Assembly: GCF_008386235.1 (NCBI RefSeq)
Contig: NZ_CP040671.1
Coordinates: 124,001-188,000, forward strand
Direction of reading: 5' to 3'
Source: Thermosynechococcus sp. CL-1
GTDB lineage: Bacteria; Cyanobacteriota; Cyanobacteriia; Thermosynechococcales; Thermosynechococcaceae
DNA: 64,000 bases
The notes beneath the pieces are model-generated. The model ran no database searches and was not told the DNA's origin. It was given only the letters and a program-made list of their open reading frames with translations. This document shows positions 4,248-56,877 of this stretch, one piece after another (the first letter of the stretch is position 1; the number at the start of each line of letters is the position of its first letter). A program made the translations under genes and the position numbers.

Positions 4248-4267
4248 AAACAAATGGATACCAAAGA

Positions 4268-5269: not shown

Positions 5270-5282
5270 GCGCATCACCTCC

Positions 5283-5440: not shown

Positions 5441-5447
5441 GTCCTCC

Positions 5448-6161: not shown

Positions 6162-6249
6162 CAGAATTTACCTCCACGGGGTACTAACGAAACGAAGTTT
6201 CTCCCCCCAACACAACAACGGACTCAACAGGAACACACGAAGGAAAGCT

Positions 6250-6675: not shown

Positions 6676-6689
6676 AGTGAGTTAGCGTC

Positions 6690-7373: not shown

Positions 7374-7403
7374 AGGCGCGTACTCGTAGGAATCTTTGGC
7401 TGT

Positions 7404-7619: not shown

Positions 7620-7680
7620 GGCGGCACTCCTTAGGGCGGGGGCAGCCCGTTGCTACCCGTTTAATTCAGCGCGATTTATT

Positions 7681-7689
7681 ATCATAGCA
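7681..7689 (-). promoter_or_regulatory. Candidate extended -10 promoter for secE operon
   Basis: The minus strand reads TGCTATGAT, an extended -10 motif, about 60 bases before the secE start in the divergent gap with the alpha/beta-hydrolase gene. No good -35 is seen, which an extended -10 can tolerate. Confidence 0.4.
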
Positions 7690-7714
7690 GGTTTCTTCTT
7701 TTTAGGAAATCCCG

Positions 7715-8596: not shown

Positions 8597-8602
8597 GGTG
8601 AT

Positions 8603-9397
8603 CTAACGCTGGGCATTGGCAGTGGCGGGTAGGGTTGTGCCATAGACACGGGGGCGATCGCCCTGGGCCAATTGGGTGCTGCCTTGAGTATCCACTGCCC
8701 AAATTGTGGCTTTGGGGTTCCCCATGGTTTGGGTTTGAAAGAGCACCCGCTGCGGATCCGTTGTGCTCCAGCCCAAAAGGGTGGCAAAGTCGTATTCATC
8801 AGCGGTGGGATAAACCGTGGCCACATGACCCAACCCCGCCTGCCAAATCCACGCGCCATCGCTAATTAAATCAGTGGCAAACAAGCCGCTAAGCTGGCGC
8901 ACCAAGAGACGATTGCCCGTTTCTGACCAGCCAACTGGAACCAGTACTGCAATCAGACCTTGACCTTGGGGCACCTCTGCCAAAAATTCAGGCGGCATTT
9001 CCTTGAGGCTTTCAATGCGCTGCTGACTGCCGCTCTGGCGATCGCGAATTTCCAAAACACTCACCAGTTGTTGCCGATGGGCTTCTGGATGGGCCGTGAA
9101 GTAGAGGGTGGCCTGTGCCACATAGCGGCCATCGGGAGAGAGATATTGGGGCGTCTGCTGAGTCAAGCGGAGAGATTTCTTAGCCTTTAGAGCAGCAGCG
9201 TGGCCGTCGTCAATCCATTTCCAAGGGAGGGGGAAAGGACTCTGAAGCGGATCCGTGACTACTGTTTCTACGGGTTGATCGGGGGCTGAGGGTCGCTGGG
9301 CTTGGGCAGGCGTTACTGGGGCGATCGCAAGGGCTGTCAATATCCCACAGACTGAGGAGATCAAAAAGCCCCGCCACGGCGCAAATCGGGTTACCAT
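8603..9397 (-). CDS. Secreted or lumenal protein of unknown function
   Basis: A 264-residue protein, not recognised. It has a clear signal peptide: basic start MVTRFAPWRG, hydrophobic core FLISSVCGILTALAIAPV, and a likely signal peptidase site after TPAQA (about residue 33). The mature part contains repeated short beta-type stretches such as YLSPDGRYVAQATLYF and ATIWAVDTQGSTQLA, suggestive of a beta-propeller-like or TolB-like fold, but this is a guess. An AGGAG lies just before the ATG. The gene's tail faces the alpha/beta-hydrolase gene, 6 bases away. Confidence 0.7.
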   Translation of the reverse strand: MVTRFAPWRGFLISSVCGILTALAIAPVTPAQAQRPSAPDQPVETVVTDPLQSPFPLPWKWIDDGHAAALKAKKSLRLTQQTPQYLSPDGRYVAQATLYFTAHPEAHRQQLVSVLEIRDRQSGSQQRIESLKEMPPEFLAEVPQGQGLIAVLVPVGWSETGNRLLVRQLSGLFATDLISDGAWIWQAGLGHVATVYPTADEYDFATLLGWSTTDPQRVLFQTQTMGNPKATIWAVDTQGSTQLAQGDRPRVYGTTLPATANAQR

Positions 9398-9525
9398 GAG
9401 GTCACTCCTCTGAAATAAAGTTTGCTTATTTTATTGACAGTTTGGTTAAACGAATGATGACGGCTCCTCACACCTCCAGCATAGCAATTGGCCTAGGCCG
9501 ATCGCAGGAAAATTAACGAAGTTTT

Positions 9526-12500
9526 ATGATCTTGACAGAATTAGTTAAAAAATCTCGTGACTATTTGCAGTCATTGGCAGTCATTGAGATTCATTCCCAG
9601 TGGTTTCCCCTCAGTTCCCCCTCGCTCAAAGATGCGGCGACGACCCCCTATGCAGTGAATGCTAAAGGGCATTTGGCGTGGCCCAAGGGTCGGCACTCCC
9701 TCTGGTTGGGGCAGCGAATCACGGTACCCGCGACGGTTCAAGGCTATAGTGTGGCGGGTTTAACTCTACACCTTGATCTCACGTGGTGGGCGGATCAGGC
9801 AACGGTGTATGTCAATGGTCAGGCGGTGCATCAGGGGGATTTATTTGATCATTCGGTGAGTCTGTGCCTAGGGGAGGCAGTGACCCCCGGCCAAGCATGG
9901 GAGGTGGTGTTGCATCTTGTGAGTCCCGGCCACGATGACGGTGCTTTGGTGAGATCAGGCCTGCGGTTTGAATTGCCAACGGGAGTGAATCCGGACTTTG
10001 TTGCCACTGAGTTGGACATTTTGGCGATCTTTGGTGAAACCCTCAACCTGCAACCCCTTGAACCCCTGCTGAAGGACGTTTTAGAAAGTCATGGACAGCG
10101 CCCCATCTTAGATCCGTTGCTGGCGGAGATCCACGAGAAAATGCAGGCGATCGCCACCCCCTTGCGGGACTTCACCATGCACCTGTGTGGCCATGCCCAT
10201 CTGGACTTGGCGTGGCTTTGGCCGATCGCCGAAACCTGGCAAGTGGCACAGTCCACTTTTCGATCCGTCTTGCAGCTAAAGGAACGCTATCCCGAACTCA
10301 CCTTTACCCACTCCACCCCCGCCCTCTATGCCTATTTGCAAACCCATGCCCCGGCACTCTTTGGGCGGATTCAGGAAGCCGTGGCAGCGGGTTGGTGGGA
10401 TGTAGCGGCAGGCCTTTGGGTCGAACCGGAACTGAATCTCATTCATGCTGAGTCCATTGCCCGTCAGATTCTCTATGGGCAGCAGTACGTGCAGCAGGCC
10501 TTTGGTGGCATTAGCCCCATTGCTTGGTTGCCCGATACCTTTGGCTTTCCAGAACGGCTCCCCAGTTTCTTGGCTCAGGGGGGCATTCGCTACTTTGTCA
10601 CTCAAAAATTGCGCTGGAATGACACCACGCGCTTTCCCCACGGTTGGTTTGTCTGGCGGGATGTGGCGGGGGCGGAGGTGAATGCCCTGATGTTGGCGCC
10701 CATTGGCGAGGGCATTGATGCGGTAAAAATGGCTGCCTATGCCCAAGAGTGGTGGCAACAAACGGGATCGCGGCGCAGTCTCTGGCTCCCCGGTGTCGGC
10801 GATCATGGTGGTGGACCAACGGCGGCAATGCTGGAACGGGTGCGACGCTGGCAACACCTCGGTGGTATTGGGCCGCAGTGGCAATGGACAACGGTGCAGC
10901 AGTATCTGGAACAATTAACCCAAGAAACACCCCCCACAACCGTCTGGCACGGGGAACTCTACTTGGAATTCCATCGCGGCTGCTACACCAGCCATGGCGA
11001 TCAAAAGGCTGCCCACGATCGCGCCCAACGCCAACTGCAAGAGGCGGAACGCTGGTGTGCCCTCGCGGCAATCACAACTTCTTTTTCCTACCCCAGAGAA
11101 GAACTCAAAGCCTGTTGGCAACAACTTCTCTTTAATCAGTTTCATGATATTCTCCCCGGCTCCTCGATTCCAGAGGTTTATGCGGAGGTGAACCCAACAT
11201 GGCAGCAACTCCTGACAACAACAGAAACGTTACTGGGTGCGGCGCAAACGGCTCTGTGTGCGTCTATAGACTACGGCGACCCCCCCGTGGCAGGGGCAAT
11301 GCCTGTGGTTATTTTCAATAGTGGGGTGGGCGATCGCGCCGGGGTTGTCCACATTGACTTGGCACAGCTCCCTGAGGAGGTTTCCTCTTGGCGGGTTTAT
11401 TGTCCACGGGGCGACTACGATTTACCAGCGCAGTTGAATGCTCCCCAAGGTTGCTTGACGTTTCGTACCCCTGAGGTGCCGGGAATTGGCTACACACTGC
11501 TGTGGCTCTGCCCGCGATCGCGCCCTGATACGTTACCAACCCCACCCTTGGGCTATGTCTTAGAAAATAACTATCTCCACGTTGAAATTGATCCGGCAAC
11601 AGGGGAAATCACCAATCTGTATGACAAGTTGAATCATCGTCCCTGCTTGGGCGATCGCGGTAATCAACTGCAATTTTTCCGTGATCAGGGGCAATACTGG
11701 GATGCTTGGAACATTGACCCCAACTATGGGCAGCAGCGACTGCCGGGGGCGACCCTAGAGGCCATTGAATGGGTGACGTGGCATCAACTGGAGCAGCGAC
11801 TACGGGTCAGATGGCGCTTTCAGTCCTCGCAGATTCAGCAGGAGTATGTGTTGCAGTATCAAACCCCGTGGCTGCGCATTGATACGGTGATTGACTGGCA
11901 AGAGGAACATATTCTCCTCAAGGCGGCTTTTCCCTTGGCAATCAGGGCTGAGCAGATCACCTGTGAAACTCCCGGTGGCGTTACGCTGCGCCCGACCCTT
12001 CCCAATCCCCACCTCAGCGCCCATGAGCAAACAAAATGGGAGGTGCCCTTTTTAACGTGGGTGGATCTGAGTACCCCAGAGTATGGGGTGAGTCTTTTCA
12101 GCGACTGCAAGCATGGCCTTGATGCCCAAGCGAATCAACTGCGATTAACCCTGTTGCGATCGCCCACTTGGCCAGATCCGACGAGCGATCGCCGCCACCA
12201 CCGCTTTAGTTATGGCGTGTTTCCCCACAGTGGCTCATGGCAAGCGGCTGCTGTCTCCCAATGGGCGGCTCAGTTTAATCATCCCCTCCGCAGCGCGATC
12301 GCCCCTGTCAACTTGTCAGGCACCTTACCCCCCCACGCTCACCTGCTCCATTGGTCGGATGCCCACATTCAATGTTTGGCCCTGAAACAAGCGGAGGATG
12401 GACAGGGTTGGCAATTGCGAGTCGCTGAAGTGGTTGGTGAAGGGGGCACCTTGGAGCTGCACTCAACGTTTATTCCATGGCAAGTCAAAGAGCAGCAAAC

Positions 12501-12582
12501 GCTCCTAGAGACGCCCGCAGGGGACACAGACTCAGTAACCCTCAGCCCGTGGCAAATTCAAGCCTTTCGGCTGCACCCTTGA
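9526..12582 (+). CDS. GH38 alpha-mannosidase
   Basis: A 1018-residue glycoside hydrolase family 38 enzyme, which removes alpha-mannose residues with a bound zinc ion. The N-terminal 200 residues form a beta domain. The catalytic domain opens with CGHAHLDLAWLWP (221-233), giving zinc ligands of the H-x-D type. The nucleophile is expected at Asp337 in WLPDTFGFPERLP, and GVGDHGGGPTAAM follows. The long C-terminal beta domains typical of bacterial GH38 enzymes are present. HIP1 sites are frequent, so the gene is at home in this genome. Start ATG; the upstream gap is shared with the divergent secreted-protein gene. Substrate is unknown; glycan turnover is the family expectation. Confidence 0.93.
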   Translation: MILTELVKKSRDYLQSLAVIEIHSQWFPLSSPSLKDAATTPYAVNAKGHLAWPKGRHSLWLGQRITVPATVQGYSVAGLTLHLDLTWWADQATVYVNGQAVHQGDLFDHSVSLCLGEAVTPGQAWEVVLHLVSPGHDDGALVRSGLRFELPTGVNPDFVATELDILAIFGETLNLQPLEPLLKDVLESHGQRPILDPLLAEIHEKMQAIATPLRDFTMHLCGHAHLDLAWLWPIAETWQVAQSTFRSVLQLKERYPELTFTHSTPALYAYLQTHAPALFGRIQEAVAAGWWDVAAGLWVEPELNLIHAESIARQILYGQQYVQQAFGGISPIAWLPDTFGFPERLPSFLAQGGIRYFVTQKLRWNDTTRFPHGWFVWRDVAGAEVNALMLAPIGEGIDAVKMAAYAQEWWQQTGSRRSLWLPGVGDHGGGPTAAMLERVRRWQHLGGIGPQWQWTTVQQYLEQLTQETPPTTVWHGELYLEFHRGCYTSHGDQKAAHDRAQRQLQEAERWCALAAITTSFSYPREELKACWQQLLFNQFHDILPGSSIPEVYAEVNPTWQQLLTTTETLLGAAQTALCASIDYGDPPVAGAMPVVIFNSGVGDRAGVVHIDLAQLPEEVSSWRVYCPRGDYDLPAQLNAPQGCLTFRTPEVPGIGYTLLWLCPRSRPDTLPTPPLGYVLENNYLHVEIDPATGEITNLYDKLNHRPCLGDRGNQLQFFRDQGQYWDAWNIDPNYGQQRLPGATLEAIEWVTWHQLEQRLRVRWRFQSSQIQQEYVLQYQTPWLRIDTVIDWQEEHILLKAAFPLAIRAEQITCETPGGVTLRPTLPNPHLSAHEQTKWEVPFLTWVDLSTPEYGVSLFSDCKHGLDAQANQLRLTLLRSPTWPDPTSDRRHHRFSYGVFPHSGSWQAAAVSQWAAQFNHPLRSAIAPVNLSGTLPPHAHLLHWSDAHIQCLALKQAEDGQGWQLRVAEVVGEGGTLELHSTFIPWQVKEQQTLLETPAGDTDSVTLSPWQIQAFRLHP

Positions 12583-12934: not shown

Positions 12935-13373
12935 TCAATTTGAAGATAGGGTTAATAAAGGCTGTGTAATGAATGACCAGCCCGTCAAAGAACGAATCAC
13001 CCCCGCCGTCAGTTGTGACAATACAGCTTGCAGCTTTTGACGCAGGGCTTCCAGCGTCTCGAAGGACTGCCATGCTCATGCTGCTCGCAGATGTTGCCAC
13101 AACCGCTCAATGGGATTGACCTCGGGGGCAAACACAGGCACGACATTGCGCACAATGCGATGCACCGTCGGGTAGGCGACCTCAAGCTGATGCTCCTGTC
13201 GCAGCCACTGCACAATGGCCTTGTAACTGTGGGGTCTTGTAGGCGTTCCTGCAACTGTGCCATCACTGCTGGAGTCCTCCTTGGCGATAGGCGTTCAGCC
13301 AGCGAGTAATGGTGGACTCGTTGCCATGGAGCAATTGGGCAATTTGTGGACGGCTAATGTTACAAAGAGCTGG
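12935..13373 (-). pseudogene. Decayed IS630-type transposase with internal deletions
   Basis: Three blocks of one transposase survive in different frames of the minus strand: a helix-turn-helix piece ISRPQIAQLLHGNESTITRW, a middle piece YKAIVQWLRQEHQLEVAYP, and a C-terminal piece VFAPEVNPIERLWQHL followed by SFETLEALRQKLQAVLSQL. The last holds the NPIE catalytic motif of IS630 elements. Stops and frame changes separate the blocks and most of the catalytic core is missing. It cannot be active. Confidence 0.75.
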
Positions 13374-13470: not shown

Positions 13471-13644
13471 TCAGCCAATATGCTTCCATGAAACAGCCGT
13501 ACCCCGCTCAATGGCTTGATTCACTCGCTTGCCTAGCAGTACCTCATAGTATTTAGGAGGCAACCCATACCCGGGGCGAATTGAACGAATACACTCTGGC
13601 GTAATCACTTCCCCTGCCGCCTCTTTAATAGCTTGTTTTACCCA
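13471..13644 (-). pseudogene. C-terminal (SAF domain) relic of a nonulosonic acid synthase
   Basis: Directly after the TAG of the amidinotransferase gene, in the same frame, 57 codons encode VKQAIKEAAGEVITPECIR, then SIRPGYGLPPKYYEVLLGKR and a terminal GTAVSWKHIG. This is the C-terminal antifreeze-like (SAF) domain of NeuB/PseI synthases. It differs from the tail of the intact synthase at 15544-16599, so it comes from another homologue. The rest of that gene is absent. The abutment looks like a deletion joint. Confidence 0.75.
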
Positions 13645-14799
13645 CTACCTGTGGTCTCTTTCAAGGTCTAGAGTGGTGCAATGCAAACCACCTAGCATTG
13701 TGTAGCAATGACGCATTCTGACAGGAATAACAGTAAACCTTTTGGTTTCGAGGGCTTTAATTAGGGGGAGTTGCTGGTCATGAACCAAGACTGTATCAGG
13801 AGCGATGGAAAACACATTCAATCCTGCCCAAGGAGAACTCATGGTATTTAAATGAGAAATAACACCCATGGATAATAATTCTTCATATATAGGAAGGCGC
13901 ACCTCATTATGAAAGGAGACTTCAGTTTCAGGCACGGGTACAACCTCTGTAAAGTATATTTTTTCCCACTTACTAAATACTTCAGGACATGTAGACTCTT
14001 TTACTCTAAAACCATTCAAGAGAACCACTCCTTCACAAAGAGGTAATATAGTTGAATCTAAGTGAGAGGATCGATAGGTATACGTCAAATGAACTTTATA
14101 CTCATTACCTAACACATCAGCAAGCCATTTGGCTCCTTTATGATTTCCAGTCGAAGAAACTAAGTATAAGATATCTTTTCCGAGTCTAATTATGTTAGCA
14201 GCATCAAAAATAATTTCATCCTCAGACAGGCGGTGAAATGTTTCATTTATTCCACCGCTTAGCTGCTGGTGTACTTGATCTTCCACGCTTTCTAGATCAG
14301 TTAAAGGACGTTGCAATAGCTGACGATATCCCCCTCTTAACTTTGGTGGTGGTGCAAATATCCATCTAAATCCTTCATCAAAACAATACTTGTAGAGTAG
14401 GTCTTGAAAGGCATAAAACTCAAATAATCTAAATCTAGATGATGGAGCGCTGACAATTAAAGTATTTCCAAAAACAATGTGAATGTCTCTAACATTATAT
14501 ATATCAAAACCAGATGCCGACCAATTCGGAGTGCTAAAGGTGTGGTATTCTTCATGCCATGAAGGACGTAAAACCAGAGCTCCAGCTTCTCGTAGGATAC
14601 TACACAATACCTCTAAATCTTCAGCTACTTCATCTAAATACCATTGGGGGTAGGCTTTACGGGCAATAGTTTCAGCCTTTGTCAAAAGCTCAAATGATCT
14701 TGAACCATCTATAACTTCTAATCCCGGAGAGAAATTGTCAACTGTGCCAACGACGACTGTCCTAAGTTTATCCCATTCATTATTAGATTTTATTTTCAT
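13645..14799 (-). CDS. Amidinotransferase (arginine:amine type)
   Basis: A 384-residue member of the glycine/inosamine amidinotransferase family, which moves the amidino group of arginine to an amine and makes a guanidino compound. The catalytic triad is visible: Asp199 in IIFDAANIIR, His246 in YRSSHLDSTILPL and Cys374 in MLGGLHCTTLD. The N-terminal EWDKLRTVVVGTVDNFSPG also fits. The gene is AT-rich and ends the pseF-pseG-pseI-methyltransferase run, 7 bases after the methyltransferase. No acetyltransferase of the PseH kind is found in the window, so an amino sugar is a plausible acceptor. Glycine or another amine cannot be excluded. Confidence 0.85.
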   Translation of the reverse strand: MKIKSNNEWDKLRTVVVGTVDNFSPGLEVIDGSRSFELLTKAETIARKAYPQWYLDEVAEDLEVLCSILREAGALVLRPSWHEEYHTFSTPNWSASGFDIYNVRDIHIVFGNTLIVSAPSSRFRLFEFYAFQDLLYKYCFDEGFRWIFAPPPKLRGGYRQLLQRPLTDLESVEDQVHQQLSGGINETFHRLSEDEIIFDAANIIRLGKDILYLVSSTGNHKGAKWLADVLGNEYKVHLTYTYRSSHLDSTILPLCEGVVLLNGFRVKESTCPEVFSKWEKIYFTEVVPVPETEVSFHNEVRLPIYEELLSMGVISHLNTMSSPWAGLNVFSIAPDTVLVHDQQLPLIKALETKRFTVIPVRMRHCYTMLGGLHCTTLDLERDHR

Positions 14800-14806
14800 T
14801 GCTAAT

Positions 14807-15487
14807 TCACTCCTTTACACCAAAGAAAGTATATCTCAACTCGCTCCCTTCTTCACGAAAGGAGTAGTCATAGTAATCTAGATACACAGGCCTAAACAAG
14901 GAAAATTTCTTCGCCATTTCTTCTTTATCTCTCACAAAGTTAAGGTAAAGATCATAGTCTAAACGGTCAGTCTTAAATTGGACATGCCACAAACCGTCCC
15001 CAACATAAGTTGCGTGATTTCTATAGTAGTGCGCCCATCCATTCATAGAAGCATAAATTTTGGAACCAACTTTCATATTGTCATAAAGACACCTAATTGC
15101 TAAATCAAAATCTGTATTCGACAAAAAGTCTAAGGTCTGAATCGATATAACTATATCAAAGTTACCTCCAAAGAAAATTTGCTCTGGATTAGGTTTAGGA
15201 TCAATGACAGCAAAGTGGGAAGCAATATGTGGCATTCTGCTACGAGCAACGGCAATATCGTTAGCCGCAATATCAACTCCGAAACAATCAAATCCTAAAT
15301 TATCGAAAAAGGCCAAGGCAGCACCTTGTCCACAACCAAAATCTAGTAAACGTTCATGTCCTGAGCCGTCAATACCGTAGTCAAACTTCAGGATTCTGCC
15401 ATAAAACCTAAAAATAAAGCTCTCTACGTTTGGAGCGTTGTAAGTTCCTGACCAATAACGAGCATTTGTTTGAAGATAGTCGTTCAT
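14807..15487 (-). CDS. Class I SAM-dependent methyltransferase
   Basis: A 226-residue methyltransferase. SAM-binding motif I is LLDFGCGQGAALAFFD, the motif II acid lies in FGVDIAAND, and FDIVISIQTLDFLSN is the usual post-II strand. The N-terminal NARYWSGTYNAPNVESFIFR resembles methyltransferases of surface-glycan clusters. It lies between the nonulosonate synthase and amidinotransferase genes, all AT-rich and co-directional, so a role in modifying the same sugar is likely but unproven. The methylated atom is unknown. Confidence 0.8.
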   Translation of the reverse strand: MNDYLQTNARYWSGTYNAPNVESFIFRFYGRILKFDYGIDGSGHERLLDFGCGQGAALAFFDNLGFDCFGVDIAANDIAVARSRMPHIASHFAVIDPKPNPEQIFFGGNFDIVISIQTLDFLSNTDFDLAIRCLYDNMKVGSKIYASMNGWAHYYRNHATYVGDGLWHVQFKTDRLDYDLYLNFVRDKEEMAKKFSLFRPVYLDYYDYSFREEGSELRYTFFGVKE

Positions 15488-15543
15488 CGATATTTCCTCT
15501 TGAGAATTATTTATACTCTTAAGATTTAAACAGTTGGCTGAAG

Positions 15544-16599
15544 TTAGTCAATTATATCCCAAGATAGAGGAGTGCCTGCTTCCATCGTAACTTTGGCTTT
15601 TCTTCCGATTACTTGGTCGTAGAACTCAGGTAGTAATCCCCCTGAAGGTCGTATAATACGGACGTTTTCATGCGTAAATGTTTCTCCGCTTTTAATAGAT
15701 TTCACAACATAGATCGAGGGACGTTCTTTCAGTGAAGTTTTTTCTGATGATAACGGCTCATAACAGACTTTGCCTAAACTTTCCCAAACCATCTCCGTAC
15801 CTAGTCGAAGCTGGTGTAATTCTGCGGGCTCAATTGAAAAACTTGAATCCACTCCTCTTTCAGAACGGGATAAAGTAAAGTGCTTTTCAATCATCACTGC
15901 TCCATGAGCAACGGCAGCAAACGCAGCATAAGGACTCAAAGTGTGATCAGATAATCCTACATAACAATTATAGCGACTTCTCAAGTCTGGTATTGTTAAG
16001 ATGTTAGCATCTTTTTCAGTTGAAGGATAGGCACTAGTGCATTTTAGTAGAATAAAGTTTTCACAGCCTCTTTTTCTGATTGTTTCTACAGCTTTTTGTA
16101 TTTCATCTAATGTTGCCATGCCAATAGAAAGGAGCAATGGTTTACCGCAACAGGATGCTTCTGACAGTAGAGGGATGTGAATAAGCTCAAATGATGCAAT
16201 TTTTATAGCATCGACTCCAATAGATAGGAGAAATTCTAATGAAGAAATATCGAATATAGTACTAATGCAAGCCAAACCTTTATTGCGAGCAAATTTAAAT
16301 AACTCCTCCTGCCATTCCCAAGGCATGTAAGCCTCAGAGTATAAATCCCAGAGATACTTACCAAACCATGGACTCTCAGAATCATCTATAAGAAACTCAT
16401 GACGTTTGCTATCAATAGTTAAAGTATCAGGTGTAAAAGTTTGTAACTTTATAGCATCTGCACCATTTTTAGCCGCAGCATCGACAATAGCAAATGCTCT
16501 ATCTATATTACCATGATGATTACCAGACATTTCGGCAATAATTAAGGGACGATAACTTTGTCCAATAATTTTAGAACCGATTGAAATAGATGTGTTCAT
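15544..16599 (-). CDS. pseI: Pseudaminic acid synthase (NeuB family)
   Basis: A 351-residue nonulosonic acid synthase that condenses phosphoenolpyruvate with a 6-deoxy diacetamido-hexose or relative. The TIM-barrel start LIIAEMSGNHHGNIDRAF and GADAIKLQTFTPDTLT are typical of PseI rather than sialic acid NeuB. VGLSDHTLSPYAA and MIEKHFTLSRSERGVDSSFS follow. The C-terminal SAF domain spans about 290-351 and ends GTPLSWDIID. It follows pseG and pseF. AT-rich with no HIP1 sites seen. Legionaminic acid synthase is the main alternative; neighbouring PseB, PseC, PseG and PseF types favour pseudaminate. Confidence 0.88.
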   Translation of the reverse strand: MNTSISIGSKIIGQSYRPLIIAEMSGNHHGNIDRAFAIVDAAAKNGADAIKLQTFTPDTLTIDSKRHEFLIDDSESPWFGKYLWDLYSEAYMPWEWQEELFKFARNKGLACISTIFDISSLEFLLSIGVDAIKIASFELIHIPLLSEASCCGKPLLLSIGMATLDEIQKAVETIRKRGCENFILLKCTSAYPSTEKDANILTIPDLRSRYNCYVGLSDHTLSPYAAFAAVAHGAVMIEKHFTLSRSERGVDSSFSIEPAELHQLRLGTEMVWESLGKVCYEPLSSEKTSLKERPSIYVVKSIKSGETFTHENVRIIRPSGGLLPEFYDQVIGRKAKVTMEAGTPLSWDIID

Positions 16600-16624
16600 A
16601 CTATTACTTCAAATTTTTATGGAT

Positions 16625-17716
16625 TTACTTGCTCATGATTAACTGTAGCATATGGCTTACTCGGCTAGCCCCTAGATGATCGCATACCGGATTGTGGTTG
16701 ATCTTAAAACCTGAATGATTTTTTATAGCCTTTAACAAGAAGTCACATATAATATGAGAATTTACCTTATTGTAATGACCTAAGTAGTTAATAAGGTTTT
16801 GTTTAAGTAAGCACATAACAGAGAGAATTTGATTTTCAGCTGTTGTTGTAATTAAACATTTTTTTTGCATAAATAAACCTTCTATCATAGAGTTGCCTCC
16901 CGAAGTTAAAAAAATATCAGCATTCTTAAGCAGACTTGCTAAGCTCTCGGGAGCATAATGAATTTTTACTTCATCTAAGTTCTTACTGATTTTTTTAATT
17001 GTTTTTAGCTGTGAATTGAAACAACCAACTACTACATCAGTACTAACTTCTTGTTTAAAGCTAGGATGACTTTTCATTAGCAACTTTATTGATTTTAGCA
17101 CTTTAATTGTCTCTCCTGTAGGATCACTTCCACCATAGGAAATCAGAATTTTCTTTCTATTATCTTGTACAGTACAGTCTTGATCACTATTCTTTACAGC
17201 AATAAAATGTGAATCAATTAATGCATATCTTAAGCCTACTAATTGATGACAATTAGTTGATTTCTTTAGCAGATTTTTATCAAAAGGGATATCAATATCA
17301 CTCAATACTATATCTGCATAATGTTCTCTATTACGAAAATCATCAATCACCAGTATTTTATATCCAGATTCAGCAACTCGTTGTTCCCACCAAATCCCCA
17401 AATTATAGCTATCTAGTACTACCCAATCAATTGACAAGTTTCTAATTGCTATTAATGTACATTCAGCATCAAGTAATTCTTTATTAAAGTTATTAGCAAA
17501 TATATTACTTTGGGCCAGATTCCTATAAATGTTTCTCATGCAAATATGATGAAAACCCTGTAAAAGATCGTGGCTAATTGACGAAAGAGAAACAATGTAG
17601 ACACAAAAGCCATCTTCAAATAACTGTTTTGCTAAGGTTAAACAACGTCGTAAGTGTCCTAGGCCGATCTCTGAATTAGCCTCTACCCTAATCGCAATAT
17701 TACCTAATCTTCGCAT
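16625..17716 (-). CDS. pseG: UDP-2,4-diacetamido-2,4,6-trideoxy-L-altrose hydrolase (PseG-like)
   Basis: A 363-residue GT-B-type nucleotide-sugar hydrolase that releases UDP before PEP condensation. The N-terminal motif IAIRVEANSEIGLGHLRRC holds the family's GxGHxxRC. DWVVLDSYNLGIWWEQ and LISYGGSDPTG follow, and TSGGNSMIEGLF is the donor-binding region. It is longer than the roughly 275-residue Campylobacter enzyme. The extra length is spread along the protein, and I see no acetyltransferase motif in it, so PseH is not fused here. AT-rich; co-directional with pseF and pseI. Confidence 0.82.
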   Translation of the reverse strand: MRRLGNIAIRVEANSEIGLGHLRRCLTLAKQLFEDGFCVYIVSLSSISHDLLQGFHHICMRNIYRNLAQSNIFANNFNKELLDAECTLIAIRNLSIDWVVLDSYNLGIWWEQRVAESGYKILVIDDFRNREHYADIVLSDIDIPFDKNLLKKSTNCHQLVGLRYALIDSHFIAVKNSDQDCTVQDNRKKILISYGGSDPTGETIKVLKSIKLLMKSHPSFKQEVSTDVVVGCFNSQLKTIKKISKNLDEVKIHYAPESLASLLKNADIFLTSGGNSMIEGLFMQKKCLITTTAENQILSVMCLLKQNLINYLGHYNKVNSHIICDFLLKAIKNHSGFKINHNPVCDHLGASRVSHMLQLIMSK

Positions 17717-17795
17717 ATAAATAATGTTTCCTGAACAATGGTATTAGTTCTGTTTTTCAAACAGCCTAGATAAGAAAAGCCCCAGTAGAAAATGA

Positions 17796-18503
17796 CTACC
17801 ATGAATCCTGCACCACTTCAGTAGAGTACAGTACTTTATACAGAAGTTCGGCACGCTGCCAATCCTCAAGGGTATCGACATCCACAACCCGCCACTGGGG
17901 AATGACAAGACCAATACCTTGCTGATGAATACTGATGTCTGCAAGCCATGCTTCAGTTCTGCCCCAGTAGAACTGACCTGCATCATAATAAGCAGGCTCT
18001 AAATCCTGAGTGCGTTCTTGCTCATACTCTGGATAAAAAGGCTCCATCTGACCAGATGGATGTCGTCGTAAAGCTCGCTGTATGGAGGAAGGAAAGTTCG
18101 TTACGGGAAAAACATAGGAAGCATTAGAACTAAGTAGCATGTCGAAGGCAGCTTTGAGATCATCAACCTGTAGCAGCGGCACGGCGGGGTAAATACAGCA
18201 CACTAGTTCAGGATGACAACCCTGCTCTTGCAATACTTGAATACCATGAGCAATGACTTGTGTGGTGCCTGCATAGTCGTCAGCTAGGGAAGCTGGCCGC
18301 ACAAAAGGAACCTCTGCACCCCATTGAGAAGCAATAATAGCAATCTCTGGGTCTTCAGTAGAAACAACGATGCGATCAAATAAGCAGGAGTCTTGAGCGA
18401 TCGCGATCGCGTAAGCAATCATCGGCTTTCCACAGAAGTTACGGATGTTTTTACGAGGAATTCGCTTGCTTCCTCCCCGCGCAGGAATAATCGCGACTTT
18501 CAT
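17796..18503 (-). CDS. pseF: Pseudaminic acid cytidylyltransferase
   Basis: A 235-residue CMP-nonulosonate synthetase that activates the sugar with CTP. The start AIIPARGGSKRIPRKNIRNF is the nucleotide-binding signature. FDRIVVSTEDPEIA, YPAVPLLQVDDL and PVTNFPSSIQRAL are as in PseF, and YYDAGQFYWG near the end separates PseF from NeuA. GC content is higher than its pseG and pseI neighbours and an overlapping HIP1 site lies at about 18397, so this gene may have a different history from the rest of the run. First gene of the minus-strand run. Confidence 0.9.
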   Translation of the reverse strand: MKVAIIPARGGSKRIPRKNIRNFCGKPMIAYAIAIAQDSCLFDRIVVSTEDPEIAIIASQWGAEVPFVRPASLADDYAGTTQVIAHGIQVLQEQGCHPELVCCIYPAVPLLQVDDLKAAFDMLLSSNASYVFPVTNFPSSIQRALRRHPSGQMEPFYPEYEQERTQDLEPAYYDAGQFYWGRTEAWLADISIHQQGIGLVIPQWRVVDVDTLEDWQRAELLYKVLYSTEVVQDSW

Positions 18504-18683: not shown

Positions 18684-19572
18684 TCGCTTCCTCGAACACC
18701 GCTGCCGCCAGTTTCACTTTGAGCGACCCGAACGGTTAGTGGCCATCCGTCAGCACTTACAGGCAGCATTTCCAGCAGCAGAATGGCGTGAACCTACGCC
18801 TGTCGGAGAAGGATTAACTCCTTGGCTGGAAAAGGTACATAGTCGGGTGTATTTAGACCAATTAAGGCGGATTGCAGCAGAAGGGGGTGGCTGGCTAGAT
18901 CCCGATACCTACCTCAATGACCAGAGCGATCGCGTAGCACGATTAGCAGTACAGGCGTGGCTCGATGGGGTAGATTTAGCTGTACAGCGGCAGCAACCGA
19001 TTTTTGTTTTGGCACGCCCCCCCGGCCACCATGCGTTGCGGGAGCGGGGAATGGGCTTTTGCCTACTAGCGAATGCAGCCATTGCTGCCCACTATGCCCT
19101 CAGTCTGCCAAGGATAAGACGAGTCGCAATTCTCGATTGGGATGTCCACCACGGCAATGGTACCCAAGCACTGGTTCAAGACCATCCTCGGATTGCCTAT
19201 TGTTCGCTCCATGAGTTTCCTGCCTATCCCTATACGGGGGATGGGGGCGATCGCGGCCCCTACAATAACGTCCTCAACTTACCCATGCCCACAGGCTCCA
19301 CTGGAGCGGCCTATCGCACTGCTTTTCAAGATCAAGTCATGCCCTTTTTGCAGCAATTTGGCGCAGATGTGCTTATCATCAGTGCGGGCTACGATGCCCA
19401 CCGCGATGATCCCCTTTCTAGCATTGAATTACAGGAGGCAGACTATGGCTGGATGATGCACCAGTGCTTGCAGATCACTCACTGTATTGTCATTGGCTTG
19501 GAGGGAGGGTACAACCTTAATGCCTTGGGGCGATCGCTAGTTGCTACAGTTAAGGTGATGGCTCACGACTAA
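18655..19572 (+). CDS. Histone deacetylase superfamily protein (AcuC/acetylpolyamine-type)
   Basis: A 305-residue zinc amidohydrolase. Conserved blocks: HFERPERLVAI near the start, RPPGHHALRERGMGFCLLAN with the catalytic His pair, LDWDVHHGNGTQ with the zinc Asp and His, SAGYDAHRDDPL with the second zinc Asp, and LEGGYNL at the end. It may deacetylate lysine side chains, polyamines or small amides. GC-rich with HIP1 sites, unlike the AT-rich genes on both sides, so it looks native. The start lies inside the DUF29 stub frame. The 3' end overlaps the convergent FkbM methyltransferase by 23 bases. Confidence 0.9.
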   Translation: MFSPVFIYSDRFLEHRCRQFHFERPERLVAIRQHLQAAFPAAEWREPTPVGEGLTPWLEKVHSRVYLDQLRRIAAEGGGWLDPDTYLNDQSDRVARLAVQAWLDGVDLAVQRQQPIFVLARPPGHHALRERGMGFCLLANAAIAAHYALSLPRIRRVAILDWDVHHGNGTQALVQDHPRIAYCSLHEFPAYPYTGDGGDRGPYNNVLNLPMPTGSTGAAYRTAFQDQVMPFLQQFGADVLIISAGYDAHRDDPLSSIELQEADYGWMMHQCLQITHCIVIGLEGGYNLNALGRSLVATVKVMAHD

Positions 19573-20317
19573 AAATGCCATCTACTTGAAGCAAGTGACC
19601 AGTACTTAAGTCTGCAAATCCAGGGACTAAACCGACTAGCCTATAACCATAACCCTTCATCAATCCAAGCATATCCTCAAATAAAATTTCACCTTCATAT
19701 AAGCTGACTAGTGACATTTCCAGTTGAATTAGAAGAATTTTTTTCAAAGAGTTTTCTGCACCTTTCAATACTTTACTTTCAAATCCTTGAGTATCTATTT
19801 TCATAAAAATTTTATCTTGTGAACTAGCTATATTAATAAAAATAGAATCTAGTGTTTTGATAGTAATATTCTCTTTAGATATATATTTTGAATTTGGTGC
19901 AGCATACAAATGGGCTTGCATCATGTTTAAGAGAGAGCTACTATAACTATTTTCAGAAATATTAATTTCAGCTTCACCGGTAAAGTCACCTAGGGCATAA
20001 TTATAAACAGTCCACAGCTGATCATTTCTAGCCTTTATTTCTAGTATTTTGAATGCTGAACTTAAAGGCTCAAAAGAGTTAATTTTACCTGAATAACCAA
20101 TTTGATCACGTAGAAGCGATACAAACTGACCAGTGTTTGCACCTACATCAATTATGTTATCAATTTGATAAAATTTGATTAACCTAGCAAGTCGAGCAAC
20201 TGGATGGGAATCAGGACGGTAACGAACAAGATCATAGCCAAATTTGCGAAATATTTTTTTGATAAAATTTTTTAAGTTAGTCATTTTTGTTTTTGAGTTA
20301 CTATTCAAGATAAGCAT
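19550..20317 (-). CDS. FkbM-family methyltransferase
   Basis: A 255-residue SAM methyltransferase of the FkbM family, usually O-methylating sugars in surface glycans. Visible motifs are NIIDVGANTGQFVSLLRDQ, NSFEPLSSAFKILE, and MKIDTQGFESKVLKGAE with the catalytic-region Asp. An internal ATG at residue 12 is an alternative start. The first codons overlap the preceding glycosyltransferase gene by 17 bases, showing co-transcription. AT-rich, no HIP1 sites seen. Confidence 0.85.
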   Translation of the reverse strand: MLILNSNSKTKMTNLKNFIKKIFRKFGYDLVRYRPDSHPVARLARLIKFYQIDNIIDVGANTGQFVSLLRDQIGYSGKINSFEPLSSAFKILEIKARNDQLWTVYNYALGDFTGEAEINISENSYSSSLLNMMQAHLYAAPNSKYISKENITIKTLDSIFINIASSQDKIFMKIDTQGFESKVLKGAENSLKKILLIQLEMSLVSLYEGEILFEDMLGLMKGYGYRLVGLVPGFADLSTGHLLQVDGIFSREPSP

Positions 20318-21260
20318 TTATTAAATTACTAAATTTGAAATAAATTCTTCTTAGAAGATATGTTAAATTTTTTGGAAAATACAGATACTTACCTCCATAA
20401 CGTTCTTCAAAATCGCGTTGATCTAGTTCTTTATTCAAACTAATATCAACTGGATGTATAATTTCTCCAATAGAAAATACTGGCAGATTTGCCAAAGAGT
20501 CATTGGGGTTGTGTGTATGTGTGGCATCGCTCCCATAACCTATATTACTGACCAAGTTAACAATTGGAGTTACAGTAAAAGATTGTGGTGCATAGTACCA
20601 TTTGCAAGCTAGCCACTGATAATCCCAAGTATCGATCTTACCTTGATAGGTAAGGTCAAAGATTTTTTGCCAATATCTACGTTCAACAGGATCATCAAAC
20701 CTCATTTTCCACTCTACAGAGCTTTTCCATAAAGGCCAAAAAGGAATATCAACTTGATATTTCTTCCATGATCGTCTCCAAGTTGCCCATCCCCATATAT
20801 GGCAGTATTTTGAAAAATAGTAGCTACTCTGATTTTGTATCATCCGCTTCTGAAAATTGTTTCCTGTAATTGCCCAGACGTTTGAGTCATTTACATAATA
20901 GTCAAGCAATTCATCACAAAACCTAAAAAAGTCAGGATGGGGCAAACAGTCATCTTCTAGAATAATCCCCTTTTCTTCATGCTCAAAAAACCAAGTAATA
21001 GCACTACTGACCGCTATCTTACACCCTAAGTTCTTCTCGCGAAACAAAGTATTAACTTCACAAGGCCAATCAACCTGTGTCGCAATTTCCCTCGCCTGCG
21101 CAACCTTCTCAGCTTCCTCTTCTCGATCTGCCCTAGGTCCATCAGCAGCCACATATAACCTTGGTGGCCGAGCCTGACGAATCGCCTCAAAAACTCGTTG
21201 TGTCGTATGAGGACGATTGAAAATGAGAAAAAGAACTGCTTTACTCAGCTTATACTCCAT
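20301..21260 (-). CDS. Glycosyltransferase-like protein (GT-A fold)
   Basis: A 319-residue protein from the ATG at 21260, chosen because it overlaps the previous gene's stop by 11 bases. An upstream GTG at 21296 would add 12 residues. KAVLFLIFNRPHTTQRVFEA and LYVAADGPR form a nucleotide-sugar-binding start, GIILEDDCLPHPDFFRFCDE carries a metal-binding acidic motif, and HIWGWATWRRSW is typical of this bacterial family. It should add a sugar to a surface glycan; donor and acceptor are unknown. AT-rich and part of the minus-strand run from 23374 to 19550. Confidence 0.8.
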   Translation of the reverse strand: MEYKLSKAVLFLIFNRPHTTQRVFEAIRQARPPRLYVAADGPRADREEEAEKVAQAREIATQVDWPCEVNTLFREKNLGCKIAVSSAITWFFEHEEKGIILEDDCLPHPDFFRFCDELLDYYVNDSNVWAITGNNFQKRMIQNQSSYYFSKYCHIWGWATWRRSWKKYQVDIPFWPLWKSSVEWKMRFDDPVERRYWQKIFDLTYQGKIDTWDYQWLACKWYYAPQSFTVTPIVNLVSNIGYGSDATHTHNPNDSLANLPVFSIGEIIHPVDISLNKELDQRDFEERYGGKYLYFPKNLTYLLRRIYFKFSNLINAYLE

Positions 21261-21921
21261 TTGCATCACTAAAGAGTTCGTAAATTTGTTCAGCACTATT
21301 TAATCTTACAAAGCTACCATCTGTTGGTTCTATTGAATAACCGAATTTCTTCTCGGCTTCTATGGGCGACATATTTGAAAAATCTAGTGCTATACCAATA
21401 ATTCCACCGTTCTTAGTTACTCTAATCATTTCAGAAGCTGCCTTTTCAGGATTTTTGCTGTATGAGATAGTCCAGCCGCATATTATTACATCAAAGGAAC
21501 TATCTTCATAGGGCATAGAGTGCATATCTCCAAGATCAATTAGAGGTGAGTAGCTTATTAAGTCTAGGCCTTTAACATTTTTGAAACCCCAACTGAATAA
21601 TCGAAGTAAGTCGTTTTCAGTTCTTGGCCCAATCACTAGAATTGAAGACTCAGGAAACACTGTTTCTATACCCAATAATGGTACAATGAGTTTATTCATT
21701 CGAGGCATTAAAAAGTCTAATTTATGATTTTTAACTGACTTCATATTGTGAAATATAGTCAACTCAAATGCATTATCTGATTCTAATGACTTAATTCCGC
21801 GAGTTAGAGCAAAATATTTCAAACGAAGGGAGCCAATAAAAAATCTGACATAGTCAATTCTTAAAAACTGACATAATGAGTTACTAACTTTAGATTTAAT
21901 CTTTTTCAGAAAATATTGCAT
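21250..21921 (-). CDS. SAM-dependent methyltransferase
   Basis: A 223-residue methyltransferase-like protein. SILVIGPRTENDLLRLFSWG occupies motif I in a variant form with Pro-Arg in place of the usual Gly run. VKGLDLISYSPLIDLGDMHS follows, then SFDVIICGWTISYSKNPEK and RVTKNGGIIGIALDF. The weak motif I leaves some doubt about activity. It begins one base after the 483-residue gene and overlaps the glycosyltransferase start, so the four genes from 23374 form one operon. Confidence 0.75.
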   Translation of the reverse strand: MQYFLKKIKSKVSNSLCQFLRIDYVRFFIGSLRLKYFALTRGIKSLESDNAFELTIFHNMKSVKNHKLDFLMPRMNKLIVPLLGIETVFPESSILVIGPRTENDLLRLFSWGFKNVKGLDLISYSPLIDLGDMHSMPYEDSSFDVIICGWTISYSKNPEKAASEMIRVTKNGGIIGIALDFSNMSPIEAEKKFGYSIEPTDGSFVRLNSAEQIYELFSDANGV

Positions 21922-21922
21922 T

Positions 21923-23374
21923 TCAACTCCTTTTTATAAATTGAAATAACCGGGTCAATTTTAGCTTCATTTCATATAATCTCGAAAAGATCTGATTTTC
22001 ATAGGATAAATTCTCGTCCACAAATTTACCCTGAAATAAGTTATAAGGCTTGTAGTACGAAAATAAGTTTCCATAAAGCATATAATAATATCCAAAAGGA
22101 AGTGAGTTTTTAGTCTCTTTAGGTTCAAGTTTTTTCAAAGATAAGTAGTCCCTTAGCTCCTGCAACGATGATGGCTCGTAAGTACAGTCTAATCCTTTGT
22201 AAGTAGCATCACCAATAGTAATCACAGGTTTACCAAGATAGGCTGCTTCTACTCCCATAGTTGAGCCATAAACAATAATCAGATCAGAGTTTTTAGCTAG
22301 CGCATAGGAATCAACCGGAGAGTAACTAGGTACTACCAATACATTCTTACCATTAAGGTTATTCCAAGAATCTCTCAGTTTCTGACTCTTTTGTTCTTTA
22401 TGAGGATGAACACGTATAACTAGCTCTACGTCATCTAGTTGTGCTGCATAATTTATAAGCCAATGAATTGATTCAATTTGTGACTTAAAAATAGGATGTT
22501 CTATTGAGTCTTCAACATAGATATATTCATCGTCACTGGAACTATAATACGTCCATCTATACTTTTTACTTTTTTCAGGAACCATCCCTTTTATCTGCTT
22601 TTCTGTGAAAGAAACCCAGCCGATTCCTTCACCTTTTATTTTTCTTAAAAAGTAAGATTCTGCTATTTCTTCTTTATTTTGATCTTGAGAAAGCTCCCAC
22701 ATTTCCTTTATTGATGCCCTAATAGCCTTAAAGTCATGGGGAGACTTATCCGATAAATAGTATCGCTCTTTTGTTGCGCCTCTTTCATGATATAGTAGAG
22801 GTATTGAATATTTTTTACATACATCAATAATTGGTTTCGAACAAGCATATCTTCCATTGTATGTTATGACTTTAAGAGGATTAAAACATTTAATTAATCT
22901 TTCTGCTGTTAGATATGTAGCGATTGCTGATTTGAAGTACCGCTCAATTAAGTTTTTATTGATATAGGGTTCTGGATCTTTCATGTATGAAACATAGGAG
23001 CTTGCAACTCCCATACCAATCTTAAAATCATCTATTCTTATTTCTTTTATCGATTGAATATCATTACAATTATCAATTTGATTCTGGATATTCTCAAAGA
23101 TTAATTTAGTTGATACTTCATCAGGAATTTCTATCCAGCAATTTTCAATACCGTATCTATTAAGAACTCTAAAGAGAGCTCTTACACGATTTTGACGACT
23201 TCTAGGAATAAATAATTTAGGTTTTGGAATATAGTCATCAGGATTATCTACATCAATGAATGCAATACCAACCTCAAGATCATTTGTTTTTTTGAGTTCA
23301 ATAGCAATCTCACCAGAGGTTTCTAAGTGAGGACAGTAGGCAAACGTTTCTATCAGTAATATATCTACGGCCAT
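21923..23374 (-). CDS. Capsule-type GT-B protein (KpsC/KpsS or CDP-glycerol transferase style)
   Basis: A 483-residue AT-rich protein without a confident family name. The C-terminal half carries VELVIRVHPHKEQKSQKLRD and YALAKNSDLIIVYGSTMGVEAAYLGKPVI, the donor-binding pattern shared by capsule transferases and CDP-glycerol polymerases. The N-terminal half has LLYHERGATKERYYL. It is therefore likely to build or modify a surface polymer, perhaps one containing the nonulosonic acid made by neighbouring genes. First gene of its operon, divergent from pseB. Confidence 0.65.
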   Translation of the reverse strand: MAVDILLIETFAYCPHLETSGEIAIELKKTNDLEVGIAFIDVDNPDDYIPKPKLFIPRSRQNRVRALFRVLNRYGIENCWIEIPDEVSTKLIFENIQNQIDNCNDIQSIKEIRIDDFKIGMGVASSYVSYMKDPEPYINKNLIERYFKSAIATYLTAERLIKCFNPLKVITYNGRYACSKPIIDVCKKYSIPLLYHERGATKERYYLSDKSPHDFKAIRASIKEMWELSQDQNKEEIAESYFLRKIKGEGIGWVSFTEKQIKGMVPEKSKKYRWTYYSSSDDEYIYVEDSIEHPIFKSQIESIHWLINYAAQLDDVELVIRVHPHKEQKSQKLRDSWNNLNGKNVLVVPSYSPVDSYALAKNSDLIIVYGSTMGVEAAYLGKPVITIGDATYKGLDCTYEPSSLQELRDYLSLKKLEPKETKNSLPFGYYYMLYGNLFSYYKPYNLFQGKFVDENLSYENQIFSRLYEMKLKLTRLFQFIKRS

Positions 23375-23652: not shown

Positions 23653-24681
23653 ATGTCTCAAGGACTGACAAGAGAGAGTAGCATACTGGTGACGGGGGGT
23701 ACAGGGTCGTTTGGCCGTGCCTTTGTCAAGGAGGTGTTGCGGCAGTTCCCTGATATTCGACGTCTCGTCATTTTTAGCCGTGACGAGCTAAAGCAGTTCG
23801 AGATGGCTCAGGAGTTCCCCTACCAAAAGTATCTAGGTATCCGCTACTTCATTGGCGATGTTAGGGATCGCGATCGCCTACGCCGGGCTCTGAACAAGGT
23901 CGATATTGTGGTTCATGCGGCTGCCCTGAAGCAAGTGCCTGCGGCGGAATACAACCCCATTGAGTTTATTCGCACCAATGTCATGGGGGCCGAAAACGTC
24001 ATTCAAGCCTGCCTCGACACCGGTGTCAAGCAAGTCATTGCCCTCTCCACCGACAAGGCGGCTGCCCCCATCAACCTCTACGGGGCAACAAAGCTCTGTA
24101 GTGACAAACTCTTCATTGCTGCCAATAACTTTGCGGGTCGTGATCTGCGGTTCAGTGTGGTTCGCTACGGCAACGTCATGGGGTCGCGAGGCTCCGTGAT
24201 TCCTTTTTTCTTGAAAAAGCGCTGTGAGGGCTGCCTACCAATTACGGATCCAGCCATGACTCGCTTCAATATCTCCCTCCAAGAGGGGGTAGAAATGGTA
24301 CTGTGGGCACTGCAGCACAGTTGGGGGGGCGAAATCTTTGTGCCGAAAATTCCCTCCTACCGCATTCTCGATGTTGCAGAGGCGATTTGCCCGGAATGTG
24401 AGCAACAGTTTGTGGGTATCCGTCCAGGGGAAAAGATCCACGAAGAGATGATTACCACTTCCGATTCTTATACCACGGTTGATTTGGGTCAATACTATGC
24501 CATTTTGCCAACTCAGGGACGCTTCACGCTAGAAGAGTACTGTGCCCAAACAGGGGCAACACGGGTTAAACCGGGCTTCAGCTATAATTCTGGCACCAAC
24601 GATCGCTTCCTTAGTGTCGAGGAGCTACGCGCCCTGATTCGCCAACACGTTGACCCGAACTTTGTTCCAGGCAGGGGCTAA
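23653..24681 (+). CDS. pseB: UDP-GlcNAc 4,6-dehydratase (inverting)
   Basis: A 342-residue short-chain dehydrogenase that dehydrates and epimerises UDP-GlcNAc, the first step of pseudaminic acid synthesis. NAD-binding LVTGGTGSFGRAFVKEV is present. IDKV-type VDIVVHAAALKQVPAAEYNP and STDKAAAPINLYGATK, the latter with the catalytic Tyr-x-x-x-Lys, are typical of PseB. RYGNVMGSRGSVIPFF follows. GC-rich with HIP1-like sites. The stop is adjacent to the pseC ATG, so the two are translationally coupled. Confidence 0.95.
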   Translation: MSQGLTRESSILVTGGTGSFGRAFVKEVLRQFPDIRRLVIFSRDELKQFEMAQEFPYQKYLGIRYFIGDVRDRDRLRRALNKVDIVVHAAALKQVPAAEYNPIEFIRTNVMGAENVIQACLDTGVKQVIALSTDKAAAPINLYGATKLCSDKLFIAANNFAGRDLRFSVVRYGNVMGSRGSVIPFFLKKRCEGCLPITDPAMTRFNISLQEGVEMVLWALQHSWGGEIFVPKIPSYRILDVAEAICPECEQQFVGIRPGEKIHEEMITTSDSYTTVDLGQYYAILPTQGRFTLEEYCAQTGATRVKPGFSYNSGTNDRFLSVEELRALIRQHVDPNFVPGRG

Positions 24682-25845
24682 ATGGGCACAATTCCCTACG
24701 GTCGCCAAGACATTACGCCAGAGGATATTGCGGCTGTCGTTGACGTCCTGCAATCGGACTGGCTGACCCAAGGCCCCAAGGTTCCCGAGTTTGAAGCAGC
24801 ACTGGCCAGTTGTTGTGGTGCTCAGTATGCCGTCGCTGTTAGTAGTGCCACAGCGGCACTTCATTTAGCTTGTATTGCAGCGGGGCTACAGGGGGGCGAT
24901 CGCCTGTGGACATCGCCGATTACTTTTGTGGCCTCCGCCAATTGTGGCCTTTACTGTGGTGCCACGGTGGATTTTGTTGATATTGACCCCCACACCTATA
25001 ACCTGAGTGTTTCTGCCCTTGCCGACAAGCTAGCAATGGCCAAAAAGCAAGGGACGCTTCCCAAGGTCGTCATTCCTGTTCATTTGGCAGGGCAATCCTG
25101 TGAGATGGCTGCCCTTGCTGAACTTGCACAGACCTATGGCTTTACCCTCATCGAAGATGCCTCCCATGCCCTTGGGGGTCAGTACCGTGGCCGGCCCATT
25201 GGCTGCTGTGAATTCTCGACGATGGCGGTTTTTAGCTTTCATCCCGTCAAGATTATCACCACGGGTGAAGGCGGTGCCGTTCTCACCAATGATCCAGACC
25301 TCTACCAGTGCCTTATCCGTCTGCGCAGCCATGGCATTACCCGCGATCCCCAACAAATGGTGAGCGACTCCCACGGCCCTTGGTACTACCAACAACTGGA
25401 ACTGGGCTTTAACTACCGCATGACCGACCTCCAAGCCGCCCTCGGCCTACGGCAACTGCAACGCCTCGATCTATTTGTCGAGCGGCGGCGTTTTTTAGCC
25501 CAACGCTACCATCAATACCTTGCTGATTTGCCCCTCACGCTCCCCTTTCAGCATCCTGACACCCGCTCCAGTTGGCATCTGTACATCATTCGCCTGAAGC
25601 GAGACCAGATTCAAACTTCCCATCGCGAAGTCTTTGAAGCCCTGCGCGCCCTTGGGATTGGGGTGAATCTGCACTATATTCCTGTACATACCCAACCCTA
25701 CTATCAGCAATTGGGCTTTCAATGGGGAGACTTTCCCAACGCCGAAGCCTACTACCAAGAAGCGATTAGCTTGCCACTGTATTATGGACTGACCCTTGCT
25801 CAACAGGATCAAGTGATTCAGGCACTCAAGCAAGTCTTGGCTTAA
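24682..25845 (+). CDS. pseC: UDP-4-amino-4,6-dideoxy-L-AltNAc transaminase
   Basis: A 387-residue DegT/DnrJ/EryC1-type PLP aminotransferase that aminates the 4-keto product of PseB. The start IPYGRQDITPEDIAAVVDVL is the family opening, VEDASHALGGQYRGRPIG-type sequence (LIEDASHALGGQYRGRPIG) holds the cofactor Asp, and VFSFHPVKIITTGEGGA holds the PLP lysine. LGFNYRMTDLQAALG closes the active site. It follows pseB with no gap. The product amine is normally acetylated by PseH, which is not found here. Confidence 0.95.
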   Translation: MGTIPYGRQDITPEDIAAVVDVLQSDWLTQGPKVPEFEAALASCCGAQYAVAVSSATAALHLACIAAGLQGGDRLWTSPITFVASANCGLYCGATVDFVDIDPHTYNLSVSALADKLAMAKKQGTLPKVVIPVHLAGQSCEMAALAELAQTYGFTLIEDASHALGGQYRGRPIGCCEFSTMAVFSFHPVKIITTGEGGAVLTNDPDLYQCLIRLRSHGITRDPQQMVSDSHGPWYYQQLELGFNYRMTDLQAALGLRQLQRLDLFVERRRFLAQRYHQYLADLPLTLPFQHPDTRSSWHLYIIRLKRDQIQTSHREVFEALRALGIGVNLHYIPVHTQPYYQQLGFQWGDFPNAEAYYQEAISLPLYYGLTLAQQDQVIQALKQVLA

Positions 25846-56870: not shown

Positions 56871-56877
56871 ATCTGAA

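Follow-up and report, generated by a model that had tools for sequence, protein, structure and literature searches.

Analysis of a 64,000-nucleotide stretch of the Thermosynechococcus sp. CL-1 genome (contig NZ_CP040671.1, positions 124,001 to 188,000; hereafter, the window, numbered from its first letter) points to a pseudaminic acid locus in which an amidinotransferase (AT) may take the place of the acetyltransferase PseH. The source genome is a single contig of 2.65 Mb with a completeness of 100. We consider it somewhat probable that the operon pseF-pseG-pseI-MT-AT, where MT is a methyltransferase, together with the nearby pseB-pseC pair, makes a pseudaminic acid that carries an amidino group instead of the acetyl group added by PseH. 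The chances appear about even that nonulosonic acid biosynthesis has a novel branch at this locus, in which an arginine-dependent, pseI-coupled AT that has been carried between phyla replaces PseH and yields 7-guanidino pseudaminic acids. The scheme is likely in outline: the gene identities, the non-detection of PseH, the catalytic triad and fold of AT and its coupling to pseI were computed, and we infer the acceptor amine, the order of the steps and the product.

All five Pse proteins (PseF, PseG, PseI, PseB and PseC) exceed the curated cut-offs of the respective NCBIfam models; the initial annotation of this DNA, which was made from the letters alone and listed these types, had both the coordinates and the gene calls right. 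The pathway is split into two transcription units, with pseB-pseC on the strand opposite to pseF-pseG-pseI-MT-AT; on the minus strand, the genes follow in this order with intergenic gaps of 79, 25, 56 and 7 bases. In the third step of the pathway, the PseC product receives an acetyl group on its 4-amine from PseH, as described in the available part of PMC7910423. The annotation found no PseH in the window, and a purpose-built PseH profile likewise detects none in the 64 kb at an E-value of 0.01. The search of the whole genome, which had been proposed as a check, has now been run and produced no convincing PseH. No protein scores above the TIGR03585 cut-off, the best match being a RimI-like GNAT remote from the pse cluster with 29.7 of 93.1 bits, and eight aligned PseH-like sequences yield a single match at an E-value of 0.01 (29.1 bits), within a frame of 920 amino acids (aa) that looks like a fusion of an acyl-CoA ligase with a GNAT. 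The TIGR03585 cut-off was rejected as proof of absence, given that it is reached in only 3 of the 28 PseI-positive genomes (28 of 291 are above the PseI cut-off, the source genome included).

By sequence and predicted fold, AT is an arginine amidinotransferase. It shows no match to Pfam or NCBIfam at 1e-3, the top Pfam match being ADI with 17.7 bits, below the ADI cut-off. A sequence search against solved structures identifies StrB1 as the best match (198 bits), along with SxtG, HsvA and human AGAT. A first structure model, with a predicted local distance difference test score (pLDDT) of 62.3, was too weak and was set aside; the model predicted from 32 sequences has a pLDDT of 88.7. The nearest chain to this model is StrB1 (1bwd; Z 41.9, root-mean-square deviation 2.0, 323 residues), followed by SxtG (Z 40.2), HsvA (39.7) and AGAT (38.8); the six AGAT/StrB1-type chains span Z 41.9 to 38.5, compared with 28.0 or less for deiminases. 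The Asp-His-Cys triad that the annotation had pointed out (D199, H246 and C374) is identical in all five close members of the AT subfamily; across an alignment of 32 rows, D199 and H246 do not vary and C374 is kept in at least 90% of the sequences. AGAT has Asn300 and Met302 before the catalytic His (available parts of PMC3684758 and PMC4887976), whereas all five members of the AT subfamily have Arg/Lys243 and Ser245 before His246. The basic residue 243 could hold a diphosphate or a carboxylate. The glycine enzyme CyrA also departs from AGAT at both positions, so that glycine could still be a substrate of AT despite this change in the flap.

AT of the window belongs to a rare subfamily. In a scan of genome contigs, close relatives were found in three metagenome-assembled genomes (MAGs), those of a member of Xanthobacteraceae (L029; 63% identity), of Staskawiczbacteria (L030; 57%) and of Deltaproteobacteria (L031; 54%; filed as Myxococcota in the PseI tree). 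Among 386 genomes of the window's phylum, there are matches in 12, and close ones in 2, namely the source genome itself and G163 (49%). Profile searches at an E-value of 1e-40 in sets of 398, 200, 286 and 195 genomes, each centered on one known member and overlapping in part with the 386-genome set, return the known members with 699.5 to 753.9 bits and everything else with 177.5 bits or less. In 41 plasmid and 4 phage records, all ATs are under 60% identity.

The gene pairing that the annotation proposed to look for in other genomes recurs in L029, L030 and L031: in four of the five close members, which represent four phyla, AT lies downstream of pseI on the same strand. The two genes touch or almost touch in these three clusters, and in the window MT alone separates them. 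The order in L029 is pseG-pseI-AT; there, the pseI stop is overlapped by the earliest ATG available to AT, and homology starts about 60 bases further on; in L030, it is pseB-pseC-cytidylyltransferase-like-pseI-AT, with a gap of 10 bases between the last two genes. In L031, a pse cluster that includes WbuX/HisH/WbuZ-like genes is followed by a second pseI, which is frame-shifted in the record, and then by AT, the end of the pseI frame falling within the AT start. As a control, 77 loci that carry a remote AT (27-36% identity) were examined, 73 of them on viral contigs and 4 from the window's phylum; none holds a PseI, and 50 of the 77 have at least 5 kb on both sides. Given the tight pseI-AT coupling in four phyla, it is strongly supported that AT works in a nonulosonic acid pathway.

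Because PseH is not detected and an arginine-type AT is coupled to pseI, amidination of the 4-amine nitrogen is the most economical reading. PseB and PseC would convert UDP-GlcNAc to UDP-4-amino-4,6-dideoxy-AltNAc, and AT would transfer C(=NH)NH2 from L-arginine, via a Cys374 intermediate, to the 4-amine of this product. PseG would then strip UDP, PseI would add phosphoenolpyruvate and PseF would activate the sugar with CMP. The product would be 5-acetamido-7-guanidino pseudaminic acid, which would be zwitterionic and serve as a surface sugar. With a different timing, AT would act on the same nitrogen, by then at C7, after PseG and PseI had processed the free amine. The PseC product has been acylated chemically with natural or unnatural groups (available part of PMC7910423). 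Two further facts speak for the scheme: the divergent PseI and PseG are the enzymes that handle the substituted sugar, with the ordinary PseB and PseC acting earlier, and StrB1, the closest solved relative of AT, has a ring-borne amine as its acceptor, that of inosamine phosphate.

The purpose-built profile detects a PseH-like GNAT, often fused to PseG, in 18 of the 27 other PseI neighborhoods (20 kb in most cases, with three shorter contigs), about 10 of these 18 matching by construction, since 10 of the 11 PseH-like hits that seeded the profile lie near pseI. On the contigs of L029 and L030, it finds no PseH, and none of the four genomes L029, L030, L031 and G163, three of which are MAGs, has a protein above the TIGR03585 cut-off. 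Several observations weigh against replacement of PseH by AT. In L031, a PseH-like domain is fused to PseG beside the AT cluster. Nine of the 27 neighborhoods (L212, L223-L227 and L230-L232; three are short contigs) contain neither PseH nor AT, so that the loss of PseH has other solutions and its absence is no proof. G163 is an exception to the coupling, with an AT but no PseI and with a LegB-LegC-NeuD-NeuB-NeuC cluster (Leg-type, with the NeuD acetyltransferase) 24-31 kb away. No PseG was seen on the 8.4-kb contig of L030. Acetyltransferases outside the GNAT family were looked for in the window alone, where a single NeuD query gave no match at an E-value of 1. The suggestion that AT acts on the PseC amine or on a later amino sugar is partly supported, strongly as regards the pathway role and less so as regards the acceptor amine.

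An unlikely alternative keeps AT in the nonulosonic pathway and directs it to another nitrogen, either a deacetylated C5 amine or an amine of an acyl group, with the C7 acetyl contributed by an acetyltransferase of another family. The presence of AT in L031 and G163, with their PseH-like domain and NeuD, respectively, is compatible with this possibility, and so are the residues of PseI. Compared with 28 other PseI proteins, those of the window and L029 depart at five otherwise invariant sites (Phe55, Ile112, Leu125, Ile132 and Pro294; seven NeuB-/Leg-type or distant rows were removed before the comparison). At position 294, both have Pro where all 28 others have Arg, and both have an Arg one position earlier. 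By alignment, this position may be equivalent to Arg314 of NeuB, which is located in the same domain and interacts with the N-acetyl of the sugar, placing it at C2 (available part of PMC6795526); the pocket of the window and L029 enzymes may be changed. The residues around C4 in NeuB vary by pathway, as stated in the available part of PMC7371886. L030 has the canonical residues at the five sites, and so does L031 where its piece covers them; only the first piece of the frame-shifted L031 pseI was used here and in the PseI tree, and its residue 294, being outside that piece, was not counted. His141 was rejected as a marker of AT-linked PseI: it is present in 4 of 4, yet also in 3 of the other 28, and PseH is encoded close to two of these three. 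Against the other-nitrogen alternative, no deacetylase and no second acyltransferase were seen in the operon with Pfam and NCBIfam, and in the absence of PseH the 4-amine is the sole free amine expected.

It is also quite unlikely that AT amidinates a non-sugar amine, such as an amino acid or an amino alcohol, that is later joined to the glycan or used elsewhere. Most of the characterized relatives considered (AGAT, CyrA and AmtA) do use amino acids. However, the closest solved relative is StrB1 and not AGAT, with the Asn300 and Met302 pair of the latter replaced; furthermore, the tight coupling to pseI recurs, and the four clusters have no gene in common for a ligase or transferase that would attach such a group.

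The composition of the locus suggests how AT came to be there. The GC content of pseB and pseC is 53-54%, matching the stretches 1-12582 and 26000-64000, whereas pseG, pseI, MT and AT are at 32-39% compared with about 53%; pseF is at 48%, and the sugar genes at 19550-23374 are at 34%. The best identities to the proteins of the 27 PseI neighborhoods are 74% for PseB, 72% for PseC, 56% for PseF, 51% for PseI and 30% for PseG; the latter is an outlier, given that the best matches of 21 other PseG proteins are at 33-98% each. The annotation took the run to end with AT, which is the last intact gene; directly past its stop, there is a remnant of a second, canonical PseI, which matches the PseI of L218 at 76% identity over 46 residues and the window's own PseI at 39% over 56 residues. 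At a distance of about 1 kb from its PseI, L218 encodes a PseG-PseH fusion of 526 aa. The simplest reading is that a resident canonical pse locus lost pseI, and probably also PseH, to an incoming pseG-pseI-MT-AT block, and this AT block probably replaced the ordinary pathway. That AT stands in PseH's place is supported by the non-detection of PseH, by the divergence of PseG and PseI where PseB and PseC are ordinary, and by the canonical PseI remnant.

In the PseI tree, the window and L029, which belong to different phyla, group together with support of 100/99, and L030 and L031 are placed elsewhere. Therefore, either AT and PseI have met repeatedly or AT has moved between pseI genes. A single ancestry of the AT-linked PseI is not supported, with three changes of the label required and a single change sufficing in 2% of 200 bootstrap trees.

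Transfer followed by decay, so that the locus makes nothing at present, is a very improbable explanation, even though low GC, the PseI remnant and a transposase-like remnant fit a decaying island. The last of these, at approximately 13079-13294 on the minus strand behind the PseI remnant, is a decayed DDE transposase-like stretch (DDE_3, 19.5 bits, below the cut-off). In addition, AT was not found in three sampled genomes of the same genus, two of which have no PseI at an E-value of 1e-90. All five genes of the operon are open with family signatures, the catalytic residues of AT are intact and AT is kept in four phyla, which argues against decay.

Coordinates of the pse genes, AT and the associated features in the window
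Feature	Position	Strand	Best supporting match
PseF, CMP-pseudaminic acid synthetase	17796..18503	-	TIGR03584, 309.5 bits (cut-off 205.7)
PseG-type UDP-sugar hydrolase, divergent, no fused PseH	16625..17716	-	TIGR03590, 167 bits (cut-off 153.55)
PseI-type pseudaminic acid synthase, divergent	15544..16599	-	TIGR03586, 412.7 bits (cut-off 340.25)
MT, S-adenosylmethionine (SAM) methyltransferase	14807..15487	-	Methyltransf_23, 37.2 bits (cut-off 27)
AT, putative amidinotransferase, StrB1/AGAT family, 384 aa	13645..14799	-	phmmer to StrB1, E 1.9e-57
Remnant of a second, canonical PseI (its C-terminal SAF portion)	13477..13644	-	SAF, 37.9 bits
PseB dehydratase	23653..24681	+	TIGR03589, 512.9 bits (cut-off 407.75)
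PseC aminotransferase	24682..25845	+	TIGR03588, 573.6 bits (cut-off 423.5)

The role of MT is a guess because the other AT clusters showed no relative of it; the idea that it also methylates the sugar thus gains no support. NCBIfam and structure-sequence searches place MT in no close named family and do not support its identification as a guanidinoacetate methyltransferase. By analogy with PtmH-type methyltransferases, which have been proposed to act on other nonulosonic acids (available part of PMC13317340), MT could perhaps modify the guanidino sugar. The interval between the two pse blocks encodes two methyltransferases, one of them of the FkbM type, as well as a capsule-synthesis-like protein and a protein whose match to GNT-I is below threshold; one gene in this interval may, from a reading of the sequence, be histone-deacetylase-like. 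Elsewhere in the window (56049-57855, minus strand), a cytosine DNA methylase adjoins a BsaWI-like restriction endonuclease, likely forming a type II restriction-modification pair.

Distant AT genes (27-36% identity) are borne by 73 viral contigs (L032-L104) and are also present in some Campylobacter phages and one cyanophage; on the viral contig L048, two distant AT matches are neighbors (8893-11092). PseI of L175 has an N-terminal extension, and a single frame of 497 aa in that genome (L233) contains both PseI and a PseH-like domain, a PseH-PseI fusion; judging by the long frames, N-terminal extensions of PseI are perhaps also present in L165, L171 and L174.

Many bacteria are covered with sialic acid-like sugars, which influence how their surfaces interact with phages, grazers and immune systems. 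If the proposed pathway is correct, its guanidino product would be built with arginine instead of acetyl-CoA and would give a sialic acid that is cationic and zwitterionic. The calculated residue mass of the guanidino form is 316.1383 Da compared with 316.1271 Da for diacetyl pseudaminic acid, a difference of 11.2 mDa or 35.5 ppm, so that the mass-shift test of surface glycans suggested in the annotation needs correction, and low-resolution glycan data could hide the near-isobaric guanidino form.

In the open-licence literature, with most subscription journals outside the scope, no paper was found that links an amidinotransferase to pseudaminic acid and, among the matches listed, none that describes a guanidino nonulosonic acid. 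The locus resembles the PseBCHGIF pathway, as described in the available part of PMC7910423, in the presence of PseB, PseC, PseG, PseI and PseF, and differs from it in the lack of a detectable PseH, in the coupling of AT to pseI and in the divergence of PseG and PseI. With the acetamidino nonulosonic acid systems (PseA and PtmG; available part of PMC13317340) and with WbuX/WbuZ/HisH, the locus would share a cationic amidine-type end group, the predicted group being guanidino rather than acetamidino; no WbuX/HisH/WbuZ-like genes were detected among the ten window proteins scanned with the library that finds them in L031. AT has the same overall fold as AGAT, with distinct residues before the catalytic His. 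With StrB1, it shares the predicted fold and the Asp-His-Cys triad, and arginine-type chemistry with a ring-amine acceptor would be expected for both; unlike StrB1, to which it is 38% identical in the structural alignment, AT is 36 residues longer and is encoded in a nonulosonic acid gene context.

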